The notes under the pieces: model-generated
Databases searched by the model: none
What the model saw: the letters and a program-made list of their open reading frames with translations, nothing else
Told to the model about the DNA's origin: nothing
Translations under genes and position numbers: made by a program
From: Chloroflexota bacterium
GTDB lineage: Bacteria; Chloroflexota; Dehalococcoidia; Bin125
Direction of reading: 5' to 3'
Length of the DNA: 64,000 nt
NCBI GenBank assembly: GCA_026707145.1
Contig: JAPOXK010000011.1
Location: forward strand, 285,908-349,907
Shown here: positions 9,770 through 22,744 of the stretch, in pieces
Layout of the letters: each line of letters opens with the position of its first letter
How positions within the stretch are numbered: the first letter of the stretch is position 1

Positions 9770-10852
9770 CTACCCCGCAGCGGCGCTGCCCGGGCTCCCA
9801 ACCGCGTCCAGCGGCCCAAGGCGCTGCTCCAGCGCCGGGATGATCTCGGATCCCAGGACCTCCAAGCTGCGCATCGAGCGGGCGTGGTCGCCCATCCCCA
9901 CCGAGAAGCACATGTGCGTCGGTCCGTACATCGTGATCTCGCTGGCGATCTGATCGGTGATCTTCTCGGCGTCGCCGATCATCGCGTACTCCGCGATCTG
10001 CTCCAGCGTTGGCTCTCCCTCGGCCGGGATCTCGCGGTGTCTCGCGCCGTCCATCCGCTGGTAGCCGCCCCGGCAGGCCAGCGCCACCCGGTAGGTGTAG
10101 CGCAGCGCGTCGGCCGCCGCCAGCGACTCCTCGCGCGACCCCGTCACGTTGAGCCAGCGCAGCACCGCCATCCGCACGTCGGCTTCGCTCTTCCCGTAGG
10201 CGCGGTGCATCGCGTCGAACTCGCGGCGCGTCTCCACCATGATCGAGGGCGGTCCCCAGCGCGGTTGCGCCAGCGGGACGTATCCCTTCTCCACGAGGCG
10301 CTTGCGCATCCGCTCGTCCCGCATCATCCCCGCCACGTAGATCTCGGGCATCGGCTGCTGCACCGGCTTGAGCGCCAGCGACGTGGGCGGCTGCTGGTAG
10401 TACTGACCCGCATAGGAGAAGGTCTCCTGCGCGTAGGCCAGCTCCATCATCTCCAGGATCTCCAGCGACCGATCGATCGAGTCGTCCAGCGTCTGGCCGA
10501 AGCGCTCGAACTCGTACGGCTGGTAGCCGCTGCCGATGCCCAGCACCAGCCGGCCCCCGCTCATCACGTCGACGGTGGCCACCTCTTCGATCAGGCGCAC
10601 CGGGTCGTATAGCGGCAGCACCACGACCCCGCTGCCCAGCCGGATGCGCTTCGTGATCGGCGCGACGTAGGCGGCCATCACCAGCGGCGATACGCACAGG
10701 CAGTAGTTGGAGAAGTGGTGCTCCGCGAACCAGGCGATGTCGAGGCCGATCGCCTCGGCCAGCTGCACCTGCTCGACCGTCTGCGCGAACACTTGCTCCG
10801 GGGGCGTGGACTGCTCACGCTGCGGGAGCAGGCAGAACACTCCGAGCTTCAT
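9770..10852 (-). CDS. LLM-class flavin-dependent oxidoreductase
   Basis: Luciferase-like monooxygenase fold, 360 aa (family 300-380). The N-terminal strand MKLGVFCLLPQ, the helix EAIGLDIAWFAEHHFSNY near residue 40, the strand RIRLGSGVVVLPLYDPVRLIEE near 92 and GGRLVLGIGSGYQPYEFERFG near 120 match bacterial luciferase-like F420- or FMN-dependent enzymes. The ATG at 10852 gives the full N-terminal strand. No flavin reductase or F420 biosynthesis gene is close. Substrate unknown; members oxidise alkanesulfonates, nitrilotriacetate, long-chain alkanes and many other compounds. Confidence 0.88.
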   Translation of the reverse strand: MKLGVFCLLPQREQSTPPEQVFAQTVEQVQLAEAIGLDIAWFAEHHFSNYCLCVSPLVMAAYVAPITKRIRLGSGVVVLPLYDPVRLIEEVATVDVMSGGRLVLGIGSGYQPYEFERFGQTLDDSIDRSLEILEMMELAYAQETFSYAGQYYQQPPTSLALKPVQQPMPEIYVAGMMRDERMRKRLVEKGYVPLAQPRWGPPSIMVETRREFDAMHRAYGKSEADVRMAVLRWLNVTGSREESLAAADALRYTYRVALACRGGYQRMDGARHREIPAEGEPTLEQIAEYAMIGDAEKITDQIASEITMYGPTHMCFSVGMGDHARSMRSLEVLGSEIIPALEQRLGPLDAVGSPGSAAAG

Positions 10853-15898: not shown

Positions 15899-17320
15899 TC
15901 AGGCGGACGGACTCTGGGAGCGCTCGGGCGGAGCCTCCACCGAGCATCCGCTCGCCACCCAGGCGTTGTAGCCGCCTGCGAGGTCGCTCAGCTGCGTGAA
16001 GCCGTGCGCCTGGAGAATGCCCGCCGCAATCGCCGAGCGATACCCCCCGGCGCAATAGATCGCGACTTCGCGGTCGCGGGGGAGCTCCTCGATCCGCCCT
16101 TCCAGTTGGCCGAGCGGCACATTGGCGCTGCCGGCGATGCGGCCGAGCCGGGTTTCCCCTTCGCGCCGCACGTCCAGGAGGTACGGATCATCCGTTTCCT
16201 GGAGCCGCTCCCGCAGCGTTCGGGGAGCGTAGCGGCGAAAGCTGCGAAGCAAATCGGGCCGCTCTCGCACCGACGCCATCCCGCCTTCGAGATAGCCGAC
16301 GATGTTCTCGATTCCGACCCGCCCCATCCGCGTCGCCGCCTCCACTTCCGTGTCCGGCTCGCAGATGAGGACGATCGGCCGCGCTCGGTCCAGCAAGGTC
16401 CCGGCCCAGCTGGCGTATTGGCCGCTCAATCCGATGTTGATCGCCCCCGCCAGGTGTGCCGCCGCGAACGATCCGGGATCCCGGACGTCGATGAGTTGGG
16501 CGCCGTCCTGCTGCGCTTGGAGCACGGCGCCCAGCGAGTGCGGCCGCAGCTCCGCCGACAGAACCTCGTCCAGCCGTACCCGCTCGCGACGGTTGACGTC
16601 GGCGTCATAAGCGAAGTAGGCGGGCGCTTCCGGCTGGTCGGCCGTCACCAAGCGGATAAACGCCTCTTTGCTCATGGGTTGAAGCGCATAGTTGTAGCGG
16701 CGCTGCACGCCTAAGGGCGACGACGTTTCCGAGCTCATGTTCTTCCCGCAAAGCGACCCGGCCCCGTGTCCCGGATACACGATCGTCTCGTCGGGCAGAG
16801 ATAACAGCTTGCCGTGCAGCGAGTCGTAGAGTTGTCCGGCCAAGTCGACGGCGGAAGTGCCGGGCGACGCCATCAGATCGGGACGTCCGACATCGCCGAT
16901 GAAGAGCGTGTCCCCCGTGAGCACCGCCCCCGGCTCCTCGGGTGCGCCGAGGTCTCGTACCAGGATGCAGATCGCCTCGGGCGTGTGGCCCGGCGTGGCG
17001 AGGATCTCGAGACGCACCCGCCCGAGCGTGATTACGTCGCCGTCGTGCAGGGGATCGAACGGGTAGTCCGCTTGGGCGCCGGCGCCCAGGCAGATCCGCG
17101 CCCCCACGCGATCGCGGAGTTCGATGTGCCCGGCCACGAAGTCGGCGTGGAAGTGTGTCAGGATGACACGCTCGATCCGTAAGCCAAGGCGTTCCGCTTC
17201 ATCAATGTACTCATCGATATCGCGACGCGGATCGACCACCACAGCCGCACCTTGCTCCCGATCACCGATGAGATAGGAGGCTTGTGCCAGGCAGCCGAGA
17301 TAGAATTGCTTGAGAAACAT
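15899..17320 (-). CDS. CstB-like persulfide dioxygenase-rhodanese (MBL fold plus two rhodanese domains)
   Basis: Protein of 473 aa. Residues 1-250 are a metallo-beta-lactamase fold of the ETHE1/persulfide dioxygenase type: THFHADFVAGH (His56, His58, Asp60), TPGHTPE and TGDTLF supply the probable iron ligands, and PGHGAGSLCGKNMS is typical of the group. A degenerate rhodanese domain (about 270-360, loop starting CEPDTE) is followed by a rhodanese with an intact CAGGYRS active-site loop near residue 430. This order matches Staphylococcus CstB, which oxidises persulfides to thiosulfate. The ATG at 17320 has GGAGAG upstream; an upstream in-frame extension lacks similarity. It is last in the operon with the molybdenum oxidoreductase genes, so the role is probably sulfane-sulfur oxidation in the cytoplasm. 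Confidence 0.88.
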   Translation of the reverse strand: MFLKQFYLGCLAQASYLIGDREQGAAVVVDPRRDIDEYIDEAERLGLRIERVILTHFHADFVAGHIELRDRVGARICLGAGAQADYPFDPLHDGDVITLGRVRLEILATPGHTPEAICILVRDLGAPEEPGAVLTGDTLFIGDVGRPDLMASPGTSAVDLAGQLYDSLHGKLLSLPDETIVYPGHGAGSLCGKNMSSETSSPLGVQRRYNYALQPMSKEAFIRLVTADQPEAPAYFAYDADVNRRERVRLDEVLSAELRPHSLGAVLQAQQDGAQLIDVRDPGSFAAAHLAGAINIGLSGQYASWAGTLLDRARPIVLICEPDTEVEAATRMGRVGIENIVGYLEGGMASVRERPDLLRSFRRYAPRTLRERLQETDDPYLLDVRREGETRLGRIAGSANVPLGQLEGRIEELPRDREVAIYCAGGYRSAIAAGILQAHGFTQLSDLAGGYNAWVASGCSVEAPPERSQSPSA

Positions 17321-17402
17321 CGCGGCTCTCCTTCGCTGCCCTCCCCTGTGTCCCAAGGGATTTTACTGCGACTGTCCGGCCGTTCCGAACGATCCGCCGT
17401 CG

Positions 17403-20318
17403 TTACGGTGGCGTGCTCTGCCGATACGCGTCGGGATGCGGCTTGAGCGGCCGCAAGAGCCAGTACGGCCGGCGATCGCGCTGGTCGGTCGGAGAGCGGG
17501 CCAAGGCGAGCCAGTCCTCGAAGACGCGCCGCGCCGCTGCTTGGTCAACCGCAATCTCGCCGTATTCATCCTCCGTTGCGCGCCGCAGCCGCACCTTCTG
17601 ATGCCAGCAGTGCTGCCCGCTAATGGGATCGGGCTGCACGGGGAAGGTGAGATTCTGGTGCACGCCGCCGTCCGACCACCAGATCCGCGCGGAGTCTCGG
17701 TCGCCCTGGAAAGGCCTGGGCCCGTGACGGCGCCGCATCCGTCGGATCTCCCCCTCTTGCTCGACCGATACCAAGGACGAATTCCAGCGATCGCTGCCGT
17801 GCTCCTCCTGCAAGCGCCAGCGGCCCAAGTGATGCGAGCAAGCGACGACCCCGGGCCGGAGCGCCTCCGTCACCCAGCAGCGGTCGACGAATGATCCGAT
17901 CGCGGTTTCCACCCGGACCAGATCGCCACTCGCCACGCCCACCCGTGCGGCGTCCTGCGGGTGGATCCACACGGGGTTGATGTGGGCGAGCTCGTGCAGC
18001 CACTTCGCTCCATTCGTGCGGCTGTGGATCAGCGTCGGGAGGCGGAAGGTGGGAAGCAGGACGTATTCGTTGGCCGTGATGTCGATCTGGGAGGGATGGA
18101 CTTGACTCACGAGCGCGGATGTCTCTTCTCGTTGCTTCGGGGTGAGCGGGTAGAAGGGGATCGCGCACTCCGGCCAGCCCCAGTCCTGCAGCGTCGATGA
18201 GAAGAACTCCAGCTTGCCCGATGGCGTGGGGAAGCCCTGCACGGTGCTGCCGGATTCATCCACGATGCCGATCCGCACACGCCCCTCCGCATCCCGGAAG
18301 GGACCCGGGATGGGAGCGAAGTTCACTTTGGGCGGCGGCTGCTCCGTCCAGAGCGCGCCATCATGCCTGGCCGCCGCCGCGACGAGTGCGGCATCCACGG
18401 GCTGCTCGTGCAAGCGATACACGTCCCGCGTCACCTCGAAGGTGCCCCGCTCCCGCATGAACTGCAACGGTGACACCTCGGCCGCGGCGGCCGCTTCCGG
18501 CAAGCCGGGCACGGAATGCTCGAAGATCCAGCGGTAGTACTCCTCGATCGTGATCCGAGCGCCGGGCCGGTAGGGCGACGCGAAGTGGCGGCGGATCCCC
18601 AGCGCCCCGTCGGGATCGATCCGCCACGAAAGCTCGATCCAGAACTCATTCTCCTCCCACACCTCGCCCGCATTGCTGCCCAGCGTGGAGTCCACGGCCT
18701 CCCCGCGGTCCGCGCGCACGACCCGCTGCACCGGTTGGCGGAAGCCGATCCATTGCGCCGCATGCGTCTCGTAGCTGTGCAGGTCGTGCCGCTCGGGGCC
18801 GAGTCCCATCGGCAACACGTAGTCGGCGTACTGCGCGCTCTCGCTCCAGACCGGCGTCAGCGCCGCGTGCAGGCCGATGCGGCGCTCGTCGGAGAGCAGG
18901 TCGATCCAGGCGAATCCGTCCGGATTCGTCCAGACGGGGTTGTAGACGCGCGTGAAATAGACGCCGATCCGCTGCTCCTGGGACCGCAGCAGATGGGGCA
19001 GCAGGAAGCTCAGCTCGAAGTGCGCCAGCGGCCAAGCGGCGGGCCACAGGGTTTCGTTCCAGATCTGCACCGGAGCCGGCATGCTATGGGGCTGCGGCAC
19101 GAACTTCGTCCACTGGTTGGGCAGCGTCCCGCCCTCGCTTCCCACTGATCCGGTAAGGACGTTCAGAAAAAAGAGGCAGCGGGCCACCATCCAACCGCCG
19201 CGGTTGCCCGCCGCGGCGTTGCGCCAGACGTGCGTCGCCAGCCCGGAGCCGGCTGCCGCCACTTCCTGCGCGACGGCCTGGATCGTTTCCTCTTCGACTC
19301 CGCACTCCTCGGCGGCGGCCGCGAACGTGTAGGGCGCGTAGAGTTCTGCCAGCAACGACTTGAACGCGTCGAAGTCATCCGCCGCGGGGATGGCGCGGAT
19401 CCGCCCGTTCCTGTGGAGAGTGGCCAGGTAGGCGCGCTCCCCGAGCAGCTGGCGCCAGTTCGTCCAGCGGCGCATGAACTCCCAGTCGCACCGGTCTTCC
19501 CGGATCAGAAAGCTCGCGATCGCGAGCAGCAGCGCTGCTTCCGTGCCCGGCCAGGGTGCGAGCCAGTAATCGGCCTTCGCGGCTGAGTTGGAGAGACGCG
19601 TGTCGATCACGCAGAGCTTCGCCTGGCCGCTCGCCTGGGCGTCGATGATCCGCTGCGCCTGGGGGTTGAAGTAGTGCCCCGCTTCCAGGTGCGAGCTAAG
19701 CATGAGCAAGAAGCGCGCCCGCTCGTGATCGGGCATCGGGCGGTCCATCCCCATCCAGAAGGCGTAGCCCGCGCGGGCGGCGGCCGAGCAGACGTTCGTG
19801 TGGGAGTTGTGCCCGTCGACGCCCCACGCCGCCAGGACCCGCTCCGTGTAGAGGTCCTCTCCGGGCCGCCCGACGTGGTAGACGATCCGGTCGCGGCGGT
19901 CAGCCAGCAGCTCCTCCCGGATTCGCGCGGCCAGATCGTCCAAGACCGCCTCCCACGTGACGCGCTCCCACCGGCCCGACCCGCGGGGCCCGACGCGCCG
20001 CAGGGGATAGAGAATGCGATCCGGATTCTGCACCTGGGCGAGCGTGGCCGGCCCTTTGGCGCAGTTGCGGCCGCGGCTCGCCGGGTGCAGCGGGTGTCCC
20101 TCCAATTTGGCGATCGCGCCCGTCGACTTGTCGACGAACGCCACCAAGCCGCAAGCCGCTTCGCAGTTGAAGCAGACCGTGGGCACCAGCTGGTAGGCGC
20201 GCTCCTTCCGCTCGGGCCAGGCGCGCGCGTCCCATTCGGTCCAGTGCTTCCACTCGGTGAGATCTGGTCCGGCGCGCAGGACGCTGCTGCGAGGGGGAAG
20301 AGCGGGATCACCGGTCAT
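17403..20318 (-). CDS. Molybdopterin oxidoreductase catalytic subunit, SoeA/PsrA-like
   Basis: Complex iron-sulfur molybdoenzyme catalytic subunit, 971 aa. The N-terminal [4Fe-4S] motif is Cys49-x2-Cys52-x3-Cys56-x29-Cys86 (CFNCEAACG ... NCAKG). Cys177 in SHTNVCS is at the position of the molybdenum ligand in PsrA/PhsA-type enzymes. The C-terminal molydopterin dinucleotide-binding domain follows after about residue 770. There is no twin-arginine signal peptide, so it should face the cytoplasm as in the sulfite dehydrogenase SoeABC. The ATG at 20318 has GGAGAG 7 nt upstream. It lies between the ferredoxin/NrfD gene and the CstB-like gene, which supports sulfite or another sulfur compound as substrate. 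Polysulfide, thiosulfate or arsenate chemistry cannot be excluded. Confidence 0.85.
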   Translation of the reverse strand: MTGDPALPPRSSVLRAGPDLTEWKHWTEWDARAWPERKERAYQLVPTVCFNCEAACGLVAFVDKSTGAIAKLEGHPLHPASRGRNCAKGPATLAQVQNPDRILYPLRRVGPRGSGRWERVTWEAVLDDLAARIREELLADRRDRIVYHVGRPGEDLYTERVLAAWGVDGHNSHTNVCSAAARAGYAFWMGMDRPMPDHERARFLLMLSSHLEAGHYFNPQAQRIIDAQASGQAKLCVIDTRLSNSAAKADYWLAPWPGTEAALLLAIASFLIREDRCDWEFMRRWTNWRQLLGERAYLATLHRNGRIRAIPAADDFDAFKSLLAELYAPYTFAAAAEECGVEEETIQAVAQEVAAAGSGLATHVWRNAAAGNRGGWMVARCLFFLNVLTGSVGSEGGTLPNQWTKFVPQPHSMPAPVQIWNETLWPAAWPLAHFELSFLLPHLLRSQEQRIGVYFTRVYNPVWTNPDGFAWIDLLSDERRIGLHAALTPVWSESAQYADYVLPMGLGPERHDLHSYETHAAQWIGFRQPVQRVVRADRGEAVDSTLGSNAGEVWEENEFWIELSWRIDPDGALGIRRHFASPYRPGARITIEEYYRWIFEHSVPGLPEAAAAAEVSPLQFMRERGTFEVTRDVYRLHEQPVDAALVAAAARHDGALWTEQPPPKVNFAPIPGPFRDAEGRVRIGIVDESGSTVQGFPTPSGKLEFFSSTLQDWGWPECAIPFYPLTPKQREETSALVSQVHPSQIDITANEYVLLPTFRLPTLIHSRTNGAKWLHELAHINPVWIHPQDAARVGVASGDLVRVETAIGSFVDRCWVTEALRPGVVACSHHLGRWRLQEEHGSDRWNSSLVSVEQEGEIRRMRRRHGPRPFQGDRDSARIWWSDGGVHQNLTFPVQPDPISGQHCWHQKVRLRRATEDEYGEIAVDQAAARRVFEDWLALARSPTDQRDRRPYWLLRPLKPHPDAYRQSTPP

Positions 20319-20343
20319 CGTCTTGCTCTCCGATCGGGATCGC

Positions 20344-21873
20344 TCATGCAAGCGGGACGGACTGTCCCGCTTGCACGTGCGCATGCTCGTAGGCGCCGAT
20401 CGCCGCGATCACGACACCCGCCGCCACGTACGCCGCGACGGGCTCCGCCATCGACAAACTCACGACGGCGAGCGCGATCCCCAGCGCGACGCCGCCCGCT
20501 CCCAGCCACAGCCAGCCTCGCAAGCGCCCGCGCCGCAGCGCCTGTAGGGCCGCACGGCTCTCGGCTTCGTGGTTGGACAGCGCGAACTCACTGACGATCA
20601 GGGCCGTGTGTAAGAGCGATCCGGCGAGCAAGATCCCCACCAGCGCGCGCAGGTCGGACCAGGGAAGCTGCGCCGCGCTCTCTACCAACACGAGGACCCC
20701 GGCCCCGATCACGGCTGCTTGCACGAGGAGATGCAGGGGAAGCAGCGGGCTCTGCCAGAGCCGGCACCCTTTGCTGTCGCGGAAGAGGAAGGCGGTGTAG
20801 CCGGCCAGCGCCAGCGCCAGCGGAAGCAGCAGCCACCCCGCCGCCGTGATGAATATGCTGGAGTCGACCAGCCCGGCGATCAGGAACAGGCCGACGCCCG
20901 CGGAAGCCAGCAGGAGCGCGACCCCGCCCCGCACGAGCCACGAGCGCCAATGCGGCTGCACCAGCATGCGGTAGAAGCGCTGCGGGTGCGTGAGATCCGC
21001 CACCAGCAACGCCACCGTGAGTGCCAATCCCGTGGCGGCGATCGCCGCCAGGGGCAGCGTCCACGCTTGCCGTTCGAGCGCCATGCCCAGCGCCAAGAAC
21101 GGCCACAGCAGGAACGGCCCCGCAGCTACCGCTTTCGTCCAAGTGTAGGCGGAGATCCGCCAGCCCCAGGGCGCCGCGCGCGCGCCGCCGTCGCCCATGA
21201 TCGCCGCCGCTTGCGTGACCGTGGCGCCGATCGGCCGCTCGGTCGCGGCGCGCGGGCGAGTGAGATCCGTGATCAGCGGGTCGAGCCCGCGACCGTCCCC
21301 GCCGTGATAGAACAGCTTCGGATGCGTGCCGCGTTCCGGCTTGCGCACGCGCAGATCGGGCTCCCCGAGGTGCTGGGCCAGGCCCGGAGATGGGCGCCGC
21401 CGGTCTCCCACGATGATCGCCTCCGTGGGGCAAACGGAGACGCAAGCGGGCTCGAGACCGCGGTCGATGCGGTGCGCGCAGAAGTTACATTTCTCCGCGC
21501 TCCGCGATACCGGATCGATGTAGATCGCGTCGTAGGGGCAGGCGTTCAAGCAGGCCTTGCAGCCGATGCAGATGGTCCGGTCGAAATCAACGATGCCGTC
21601 GGGCCGGCGGTACATCGCCCGCGTGGGGCACACGCTGGTGCAGGGCGCGTCCTCACACTGGTTACAGCGGGTGACTTGGAAGCTGCGCGCTACCTTGGGG
21701 AACCGTCCAACCTCGACCTCCTTCACGAAGGTGCGATGGACGCCTAGAGGGACGTCGTTCTCGGCCTTGCAGGCGACGCTGCAAGCATGGCAGCCAATGC
21801 AGCGCTGCTGATCGATGATCTTGACCCAGATGGGAGGATCCGCGGCAGGCGTGAGGCCTTCGGTCGCAGCCAA
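20344..21873 (-). CDS. Fused four-cluster ferredoxin and NrfD/PsrC-type membrane anchor
   Basis: Protein of 509 aa. Residues 1-150 hold four cysteine quartets for [4Fe-4S] clusters (Cys25/28/31/35, 70/73/78/82, 102/105/108/112, 129/132/144/148), the electron-transfer subunit pattern of PsrB, NrfC and SoeB. From about residue 200 to the end it is strongly hydrophobic with eight or nine helices, an NrfD/PsrC-type quinone-interacting anchor. The two are usually separate genes. The likely start is the TTG at 21873, with GAGGA 7 nt upstream; no ATG or GTG fits. The next gene is the molybdoenzyme 25 nt on, so this fusion supplies both missing subunits of the complex. Confidence 0.88.
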   Translation of the reverse strand: MAATEGLTPAADPPIWVKIIDQQRCIGCHACSVACKAENDVPLGVHRTFVKEVEVGRFPKVARSFQVTRCNQCEDAPCTSVCPTRAMYRRPDGIVDFDRTICIGCKACLNACPYDAIYIDPVSRSAEKCNFCAHRIDRGLEPACVSVCPTEAIIVGDRRRPSPGLAQHLGEPDLRVRKPERGTHPKLFYHGGDGRGLDPLITDLTRPRAATERPIGATVTQAAAIMGDGGARAAPWGWRISAYTWTKAVAAGPFLLWPFLALGMALERQAWTLPLAAIAATGLALTVALLVADLTHPQRFYRMLVQPHWRSWLVRGGVALLLASAGVGLFLIAGLVDSSIFITAAGWLLLPLALALAGYTAFLFRDSKGCRLWQSPLLPLHLLVQAAVIGAGVLVLVESAAQLPWSDLRALVGILLAGSLLHTALIVSEFALSNHEAESRAALQALRRGRLRGWLWLGAGGVALGIALAVVSLSMAEPVAAYVAAGVVIAAIGAYEHAHVQAGQSVPLA

Positions 21874-22010: not shown

Positions 22011-22535
22011 TTATGCGCGGTATACGCCGTGCTTGCCGTTCTTGACGCGGGCGAAGAGCGTTCGGGTTTCCTCGTCGAGGAGGAGGGTTTCGGTGACGAT
22101 GCCGATTTGGGCGGTGGTGTCGAAGTAGGCGAAGCGCATGCCGGGATTGGTGCCGAGGCGGCCGCTTTGGATCAGGGGGATGTGGCGGGCGGCGAAGTAG
22201 GCGATGGCGGCGGGCTCGTCGTCGATGAGGTAGCCGAGGTGCTGGAGGCCGGGGCCGTGGGCGTCGAGGAACTCTTGGTAGAGGCTGCGGCCGCGGAGGG
22301 GCTGGACGAGCTCGATCTGGGTGTCGCCGGCGTAGCCGAGGGAGAGGTGCATGCCGTAGTCGCCGGGACTGCCGCGGTAAGTGGAGTCGTAGATGGGGAT
22401 GTCTTCGATGCGGAAGAAGCCGGGGACGCCCAGGGTGTCGATGAAGAATTGCTCGGAAGCGGCGATCTCCGGGACGACGTAGGCGAGCTGGCTGAAGCCG
22501 TTCGCGATGGCGGGCGTCGGTGGGGGTGGGCGCAT
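22011..22535 (-). CDS. VOC-family (glyoxalase/dioxygenase fold) protein
   Basis: Protein of 174 aa with two betaalphabetabetabeta modules of the vicinal oxygen chelate fold: GFSQLAYVVPEIAASEQFFIDTLGVPGFF opens the first and LQHLGYLIDDEPAAIAYFAARHIPLI the second. The closest general type is a glyoxalase/bleomycin resistance-like enzyme; QIELVQPLRG provides the Glu often used as a metal ligand. The ATG at 22535 was chosen over an upstream TTG because GGAG precedes it at proper distance. It lies 138 nt upstream of the sulfur operon, same strand, but a shared transcript is not certain. Substrate unknown. Confidence 0.82.
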   Translation of the reverse strand: MRPPPPTPAIANGFSQLAYVVPEIAASEQFFIDTLGVPGFFRIEDIPIYDSTYRGSPGDYGMHLSLGYAGDTQIELVQPLRGRSLYQEFLDAHGPGLQHLGYLIDDEPAAIAYFAARHIPLIQSGRLGTNPGMRFAYFDTTAQIGIVTETLLLDEETRTLFARVKNGKHGVYRA

Positions 22536-22744
22536 GGGGAGCTCCAAGGGTTGCAGGCGCTGGGGGACTGGCGGGTCGATCCGAGAGCAGCCTAGCCCTC
22601 TCTTGGGAAGTGGACGAGGCCGGCCGGAGACCGAAGGCCACCCGAGACCGGACCAGCGTCCGGCCGTCGGGCGCGGGCGGCGCTCCGGGAGCCGGAGGGC
22701 TAGACTGCGGCATCCGGCGGGACGCCTCCGCCGCCAGGGCCGCG

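Follow-up and report, generated by a model that had tools for sequence, protein, structure and literature searches.

A 64,000-nt stretch of a Chloroflexota genome (assembly GCA_026707145.1, contig JAPOXK010000011.1, positions 285,908 to 349,907; hereafter the window) carries three open reading frames (ORFs) on the minus strand, from 21873 to 15899, which probably encode a two-step cytoplasmic sulfur oxidation, with a CstB-like persulfide dioxygenase (PDO) acting ahead of a SoeABC-like sulfite:quinone oxidoreductase. All three ORFs run in one direction, separated by 25 and 82 nt, and the Shine-Dalgarno sequences of the cluster genes are plausible. No terminator-like site was found between the three genes; the only two in the region sit within the molybdenum (Mo) enzyme gene, and their total is not above chance. 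The original prediction, made from the nucleotide sequence, had reported this cluster, and we recovered it in full; its functional reading is largely right, the function itself being predicted. It had also considered a route from persulfide through sulfite to sulfate with electrons passed to quinone to be coherent, and we judged the predicted route likewise.

In the proposed scheme, the CstB-like enzyme, an Fe(II) persulfide dioxygenase joined to a rhodanese, would use O2 to convert a low-molecular-weight persulfide into sulfite, part of which would be trapped as thiosulfate via its rhodanese domain. Sulfite would then be oxidized to sulfate at the Mo-bis(pyranopterin guanine dinucleotide) cofactor (Mo-bisPGD) of a 971-aa subunit, and electrons would travel from the N-terminal [4Fe-4S] cluster of this subunit through the four clusters of a fused iron-sulfur (Fe-S) domain to quinone in an NrfD domain. 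The entire head would lie on the cytoplasmic side, working in the manner of SoeABC with SoeB and SoeC fused, and the sulfite step would both clear a toxic product and feed the respiratory chain. The substrate, the direction of the reaction, quinone as acceptor and the coupling of both enzymes are what we infer in this scheme; sulfite was chosen on the strength of three independent types of gene found near this kind of complex, namely those for sulfite-making enzymes, sulfite exporters and a transporter of its product.

Enzymes encoded by the three-gene cluster

The third gene (15899..17320, minus strand, ATG start after GGAGAG) encodes a 473-aa protein with Pfam domains Lactamase_B and two copies of Rhodanese. 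It gave near full-length phmmer matches to 3tp9 (E=1.3e-95) and to 3r2u (E=1.9e-58), which we take to be Staphylococcus aureus CstB. When aligned with 3r2u and ten homologues, the protein was found to keep every CstB catalytic element. Fe ligands of the metallo-beta-lactamase (MBL) domain (HxHxD, His, Asp, His) are present in THFHADF, PGHTPE, GDTLF (within GDTLFIGD) and PGHGAGSLC, as is the extra cysteine of the GAGSxCGK motif (GAGSLCGK, Cys191). The middle rhodanese-homology domain reads LICEPDTE, with a cysteine but not the active CxxGxR loop, and the C-terminal loop is of the active type (YCAGGYRS, catalytic Cys423). The order of MBL, pseudo-rhodanese and rhodanese domains, the Fe ligands, the GAGSxCGK cysteine and the rhodanese cysteine loop are shared with both CstB and 3tp9, bearing out the MBL-rhodanese-rhodanese order originally described, and by architecture and residues the predicted product is a CstB-type persulfide dioxygenase-sulfurtransferase. 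It differs from CstB in its setting, as it lies outside any cst operon with CstR, CstA or sulfide:quinone oxidoreductase (SQR) and is linked to the Mo complex instead.

The first gene (20344..21873, minus strand, TTG start after GAGGAA) encodes a 509-aa protein with Pfam domains Fer4_11 and NrfD. A SoeB-like domain for four [4Fe-4S] clusters spans residues 1 to c. 195, with 16 cysteines invariant across aligned family members, and an NrfD domain (PF03916) with eight transmembrane helices spans residues c. 236-504. Electron transfer and membrane anchoring were therefore both present as originally proposed, with the refinement that they reside in a single fused polypeptide. The second gene (17403..20318, minus strand, ATG start) encodes the 971-aa catalytic subunit (Molybdop_Fe4S4, Molybdopterin and Molydop_binding). 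Its Cys49, Cys52, Cys56 and Cys86, belonging to the N-terminal [4Fe-4S] site, and Cys177 are invariant in 21 family members. Cys177 aligns with the cysteine of PsrA (2vpw) that is the Mo ligand there, and it is probably the Mo ligand of the 971-aa subunit as well. In AlphaFold2 models, the predicted local distance difference test score was 80 for the fusion, whereas the Mo subunit reached 75; the latter model was low in several cofactor loops, so no inference on the substrate was drawn from it. Foldseek matched the fusion best to PsrB (2vpw_B), with ArrB also among its hits, the membrane part best to ActC, and the Mo subunit to ArrA and PsrA. Similarly, the best profile and PDB matches of the complex were PhsA, PsrA, TtrB and ArrA, and curated NCBIfam models gave sub-threshold matches only.

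Orientation and affiliation of the molybdenum complex

The Mo subunit had been predicted to face the cytoplasm and to lack a twin-arginine translocation (Tat) signal, and both parts of this claim were supported. No Tat motif was seen in the 971-aa subunit, nor in 88 of 89 family ORFs; the single Tat-like motif lies upstream of the probable start. Among the controls, PhsA, DmsA and a homologue from Azoarcus were positive, and the strict pattern did not catch TtrA, which starts with MANLTRRQWLK. The loop charges of the NrfD domain served as an independent test: the loops carry 8-14 lysines and arginines on the Fe-S side (mean 10.8) and 0-3 on the opposite side (mean 0.9) in all 23 aligned anchors. 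The charges are reversed in the references compared: 4 versus 8 in E. coli DmsC, 6 versus 12 in a plasmid-borne TtrC with nine predicted helices, and 2 versus 10 in the NrfD protein of the Tat-bearing Azoarcus complex. Under the positive-inside rule these loop charges place the catalytic head on the cytoplasmic side, where it should lie throughout the window family. In addition, an Fe-S domain fused to its membrane anchor presumably could not hitch-hike through the Tat system. Among NrfD proteins, such an inverted arrangement is expected for SoeC alone, according to Calisto and Pereira (PMC8076601).

We built a tree on the N-terminal region of the Mo subunit with one reference per family, in which PsrA, ArrA and FdhF were partial sequences; SoeA was compared by its published description. 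The window family and a Sulfurovum homologue formed their own clade (support 100/100, long stem of 0.96), outside PsrA/PhsA, ArrA, TtrA, DmsA and FdhF. The phylogeny suggested as a check of the original prediction was thus run in part, and it placed the subunit in none of the other clades sampled. The nearest outside relative in the tree is the Tat-bearing, split-gene homologue from Sulfurovum. On a plasmid of Sulfurovum mangrovi (L117, 7813-11169), this homologue has separate Fe-S and NrfD genes and a Mo gene broken by frame shifts, with a Tat-like signal in another frame. Its loop charges are not inverted and fit a periplasmic head. Given this non-inverted, Tat-like relative, the inversion of the head may have arisen on the stem of the window family. 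A second Tat-bearing relative, on pAZKH of Azoarcus sp. KH32C (L116, 2248-11411), has the gene order B-C-A-TorD and adjoins a Ttr-like two-component system; in the tree, it joins uncharacterised MopB genes from elsewhere in a separate, unassigned clade.

The complex resembles SoeABC of Allochromatium vinosum and Aquifex aeolicus (PMC8076601, PMC5114278) in having a Mo-bisPGD subunit with an N-terminal [4Fe-4S] cluster and no Tat signal, a four-cluster Fe-S part, and an NrfD/PsrC-like anchor with the head predicted to be cytoplasmic. On the other hand, soeA, soeB and soeC are separate genes, whereas a single polypeptide combines the SoeB- and SoeC-like domains in the window and in almost all relatives. 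In the window family, moreover, the BC gene precedes the A gene, and TorD and SulP genes often come next. PsrABC, PhsABC, TtrABC and ArrAB share the complex iron-sulfur molybdoenzyme architecture and a cysteine-ligated Mo, and are the best PDB matches, but they are Tat-exported, periplasmic and placed in separate clades, unlike the cytoplasmic type of subunit in the window. Plasmid searches by tblastn, for which both the Mo subunit and the Fe-S domain served as queries, turned up no SoeABC locus; candidates in Caballeronia, Burkholderia, Nostoc and Streptomyces were rejected as other MopB proteins. Wells et al. described SoeA as a lineage of its own together with bacterial SreA (PMC10100899). 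On elemental sulfur, genes of Sulfobacillus acidophilus that carry a SoeABC annotation, and may belong to the window family, rise by 4-5 log2 units (PMC5114278). We thus call the complex Soe-like, as distinct from a proven SoeABC, with sulfite as its presumed substrate.

Distribution and sulfur neighbourhoods

Relatives of the Mo subunit were found in 588 stretches of GTDB species genomes. The best 80 of these were 54-66% identical to it and came from Chloroflexota, Bacillota, Gemmatimonadota, Acidobacteriota, Binatota, Actinomycetota, Planctomycetota, Thermomicrobia and others; plasmid carriers included Thermomicrobium roseum, Rhodococcus jostii and haloarchaea. Both proteins are conserved across dozens of genomes, with identities of 49-66% for the Mo subunit and 39-49% for the fusion, so the pair is not a chance finding. 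Where the contig is long enough, the Mo gene is, with few exceptions, immediately preceded by the fused Fe-S-NrfD gene. Overall, the first two genes are a very common two-gene unit, with hundreds of loci that span many phyla and include haloarchaea, and the family is very widespread and poorly annotated. Its distribution is patchy, as expected of horizontally moved genes. In one class, to which G081 and the Gemmatimonadaceae genome G076 (with locus L037) belong, 91 of the 295 genomes sampled have the pair; in the phylum of Sulfoacidibacillus, a full relative was present in only 3 of 399. No other sampled genome of the window's own taxonomic family carries the pair (G002-G019 have no Mo gene) and few in its class do.

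We then scored the gene content around 124 loci, about 37 of which come from one class, so that the counts are not independent, and part of which have incomplete flanks. Genes for sulfur chemistry or sulfur sensing were found within 1.5 kb at 48 loci, at 3-6 kb at 5 and at 6-10 kb at 3, in agreement with the sulfur context originally proposed for the Mo complex, which recurs across phyla. The commonest sulfur neighbour was a SulP sulfate permease, located downstream either directly or after a TorD-type chaperone (30/124); two that were tested matched Pfam Sulfate_transp with E=7e-82 and 2e-73. A PDO-rhodanese of another type lies directly upstream at four loci (L042, L054, L056 and L068). Further neighbours were DsrE, TusA, LbpA-like proteins with lipoate ligase (LplA), TauE sulfite exporters, DUF6691 and CstR-like repressors; the latter belong to the CsoR family, and the T. 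roseum copy is without the copper-ligand histidine.

Some of these neighbourhoods are of separate note. A conserved four-gene unit of Fe-S-NrfD, Mo, TorD-like chaperone and SulP genes recurs at L198-L234, mostly in the class of G081, where many of the genomes sampled have it. Two conserved families of c. 160-aa proteins (c4 and c8) adjoin the Mo operon in Bacillota (L010, L013, L015, L018, L019, L021 and L022). Upstream of the pair at L006, L038 and L040 are genes for EtfB/EtfA-like proteins, a large membrane protein, LbpA-like GcvH proteins and lipoate ligase, which suggests a link of the pair to sulfur oxidation of the sHdr-LbpA type. ArsR, DUF6691, PDO-rhodanese, the Mo pair and SulP stand together at L056 (4063-12858), on a contig of a metagenome-assembled genome (MAG) labelled Klebsiella pneumoniae, a label that looks wrong.

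The exact string of Fe-S-NrfD, Mo and CstB-like genes was found at 1 of the 124 loci, the window itself, and a conserved three-gene operon was rejected on this count. An unprecedented combination was also rejected, as both parts stand in one sulfur island in R. jostii RHA1 and in Alicyclobacillus sp. SP_1. The earlier view that the arrangement is not a standard one thus holds for the exact string, but not for the Mo pair, which is common, or for its linkage to a PDO gene, which recurs in these two species and at the four loci above. On pRHL3 of R. jostii RHA1 (about RHA1_RS43805-43880), the pair, a CstB-like gene, DsrE and TusA lie within 16 kb, with identities to the window proteins of 53.6% (Mo), 42% (fusion) and 48.8% (CstB-like). 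This island differs in that it also has DsrE, TusA, Mrp, two regulators of the ArsR type and further MBL genes, and its CstB-like gene is 3.4 kb off and divergent. The Alicyclobacillus island comprises SQR-like, TauE, CstB-like and LysR genes, the pair, a CstR-like repressor and two rhodanese genes. The window is a compact form of this recurring sulfur-oxidation island, of which our literature searches returned no published description.

The host genome (2.4 Mb in 28 contigs, 93% complete) belongs to the class of the Chloroflexi MAG B41T1B8. Of its four MopB-type loci, only the one in the window is a member of the window Mo family. A COX1 haem-copper oxidase gene was also found; an SQR search, run without a positive control, returned no match. 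Upstream of the cluster, on the same strand after a gap of 137 nt, a gene for a Glyoxalase_4 (vicinal oxygen chelate) protein (22011..22547, minus strand) is possibly co-transcribed with it. A luciferase-like monooxygenase gene lies about 5 kb downstream (9770-10852, minus strand); such monooxygenases are able to free sulfite from organosulfur compounds.

Alternative readings and significance

Several observations weigh against a dedicated persulfide-to-sulfate route. The final product of S. aureus CstB is thiosulfate (PMC9774590), and by analogy the flux of sulfite may be small. Three host proteins matching the sulfite-oxidase fold (PF00174; C17:29686-30129, C17:2367-2810 and C22:7470-7892) could do the same sulfite job, a possible redundancy. 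The Mo subunit, likened to SoeA by published description, may be no more than a distant parallel to it. Neighbour counts are inflated, since the queries were drawn from some of the counted loci and related Gemmatimonadota are numerous. Finally, the closest relatives (L005/G024 and L008) have their PDO gene elsewhere in the genome, and the Mo family thus needs no adjacent PDO; the matches in G024, of the same class as the window genome, and in G061, the genome of L005, are identical.

Three other explanations were weighed against this background. A mere chance adjacency, the CstB-like gene having inserted downstream of a Mo complex that is unrelated and functionally unconnected to it, would fit the single occurrence of the exact string, the two genes on different contigs in G024 and the missing Mo gene in G002-G019. 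We consider it very improbable, since the strand is shared, the 82-nt gap is free of terminators and PDO genes have become linked to this complex independently in R. jostii, in Alicyclobacillus and at the four loci whose PDO is of another type. The complex might instead be a quinol-fed reductase of polysulfide, thiosulfate or tetrathionate next to a CstB-like detoxification gene. The matches to PhsA, PsrA, TtrB and ArrA point this way, as do the closest homologues with a Tat signal (that of Azoarcus KH32C, next to a Ttr-like two-component system, and that of S. mangrovi), which resemble periplasmic reductases, and the 'tetrathionate reductases' annotated in SAR202 Chloroflexi (PMC5864207). Yet the head is predicted to be cytoplasmic, unlike that of PsrABC, TtrABC and PhsABC, the Mo subunit falls outside the PsrA/PhsA, TtrA and ArrA clades, and the neighbours are oxidative (PDO, SQR-like, SulP and TauE). 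Numerous carriers, such as Thermomicrobium, Rhodococcus and Alicyclobacillus, are moreover aerobes, and a reductase is on balance quite unlikely.

It is similarly unlikely, if not quite to that degree, that the complex, as a cytoplasmic quinone-linked oxidoreductase, acts on a different S(IV) or sulfane compound, such as thiosulfate, sulfur from sHdr-LbpA or an organic sulfinate, with the PDO running in parallel. Neighbours of the LbpA/LplA and DsrE/TusA kind (L006, L038, L040, L220, L021, L084 and R. jostii) would favor it, and they show the complex coming after several distinct routes of sulfur release. However, the sHdr and PDO routes are both thought to end in sulfite, which is the one substrate that would explain all of these neighbours, and the commonest sulfur gene downstream is a sulfate permease.

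Oxidation of sulfite by a Soe-like complex therefore stays our preferred reading of the pair. Going beyond it, we put forward tentatively, as a possibility we lean against, that the pair forms a separate, unnamed family of sulfite:quinone oxidoreductases, distinct from SoeABC, which turned its head from the periplasm to the cytoplasm independently and supplies the main sulfite-oxidizing step of many PDO heterotrophs without annotated SoeABC. Persulfide dioxygenases are common in heterotrophs, and the fate of sulfite in those that carry them is often unclear. In a survey of Bohai Sea sediments, PDO was abundant in heterotrophs including Gemmatimonadota, the main carriers of type III, and SoeABC went undetected (PMC12345210); such surveys may be overlooking the window Mo family. 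The interest thus lies in a wide, poorly annotated family more than in the three-gene string itself. Should the pair prove to oxidize sulfite, an energy-conserving step so far missing from heterotrophic sulfur oxidation would become testable in hosts that can be cultured, such as R. jostii RHA1 and T. roseum.

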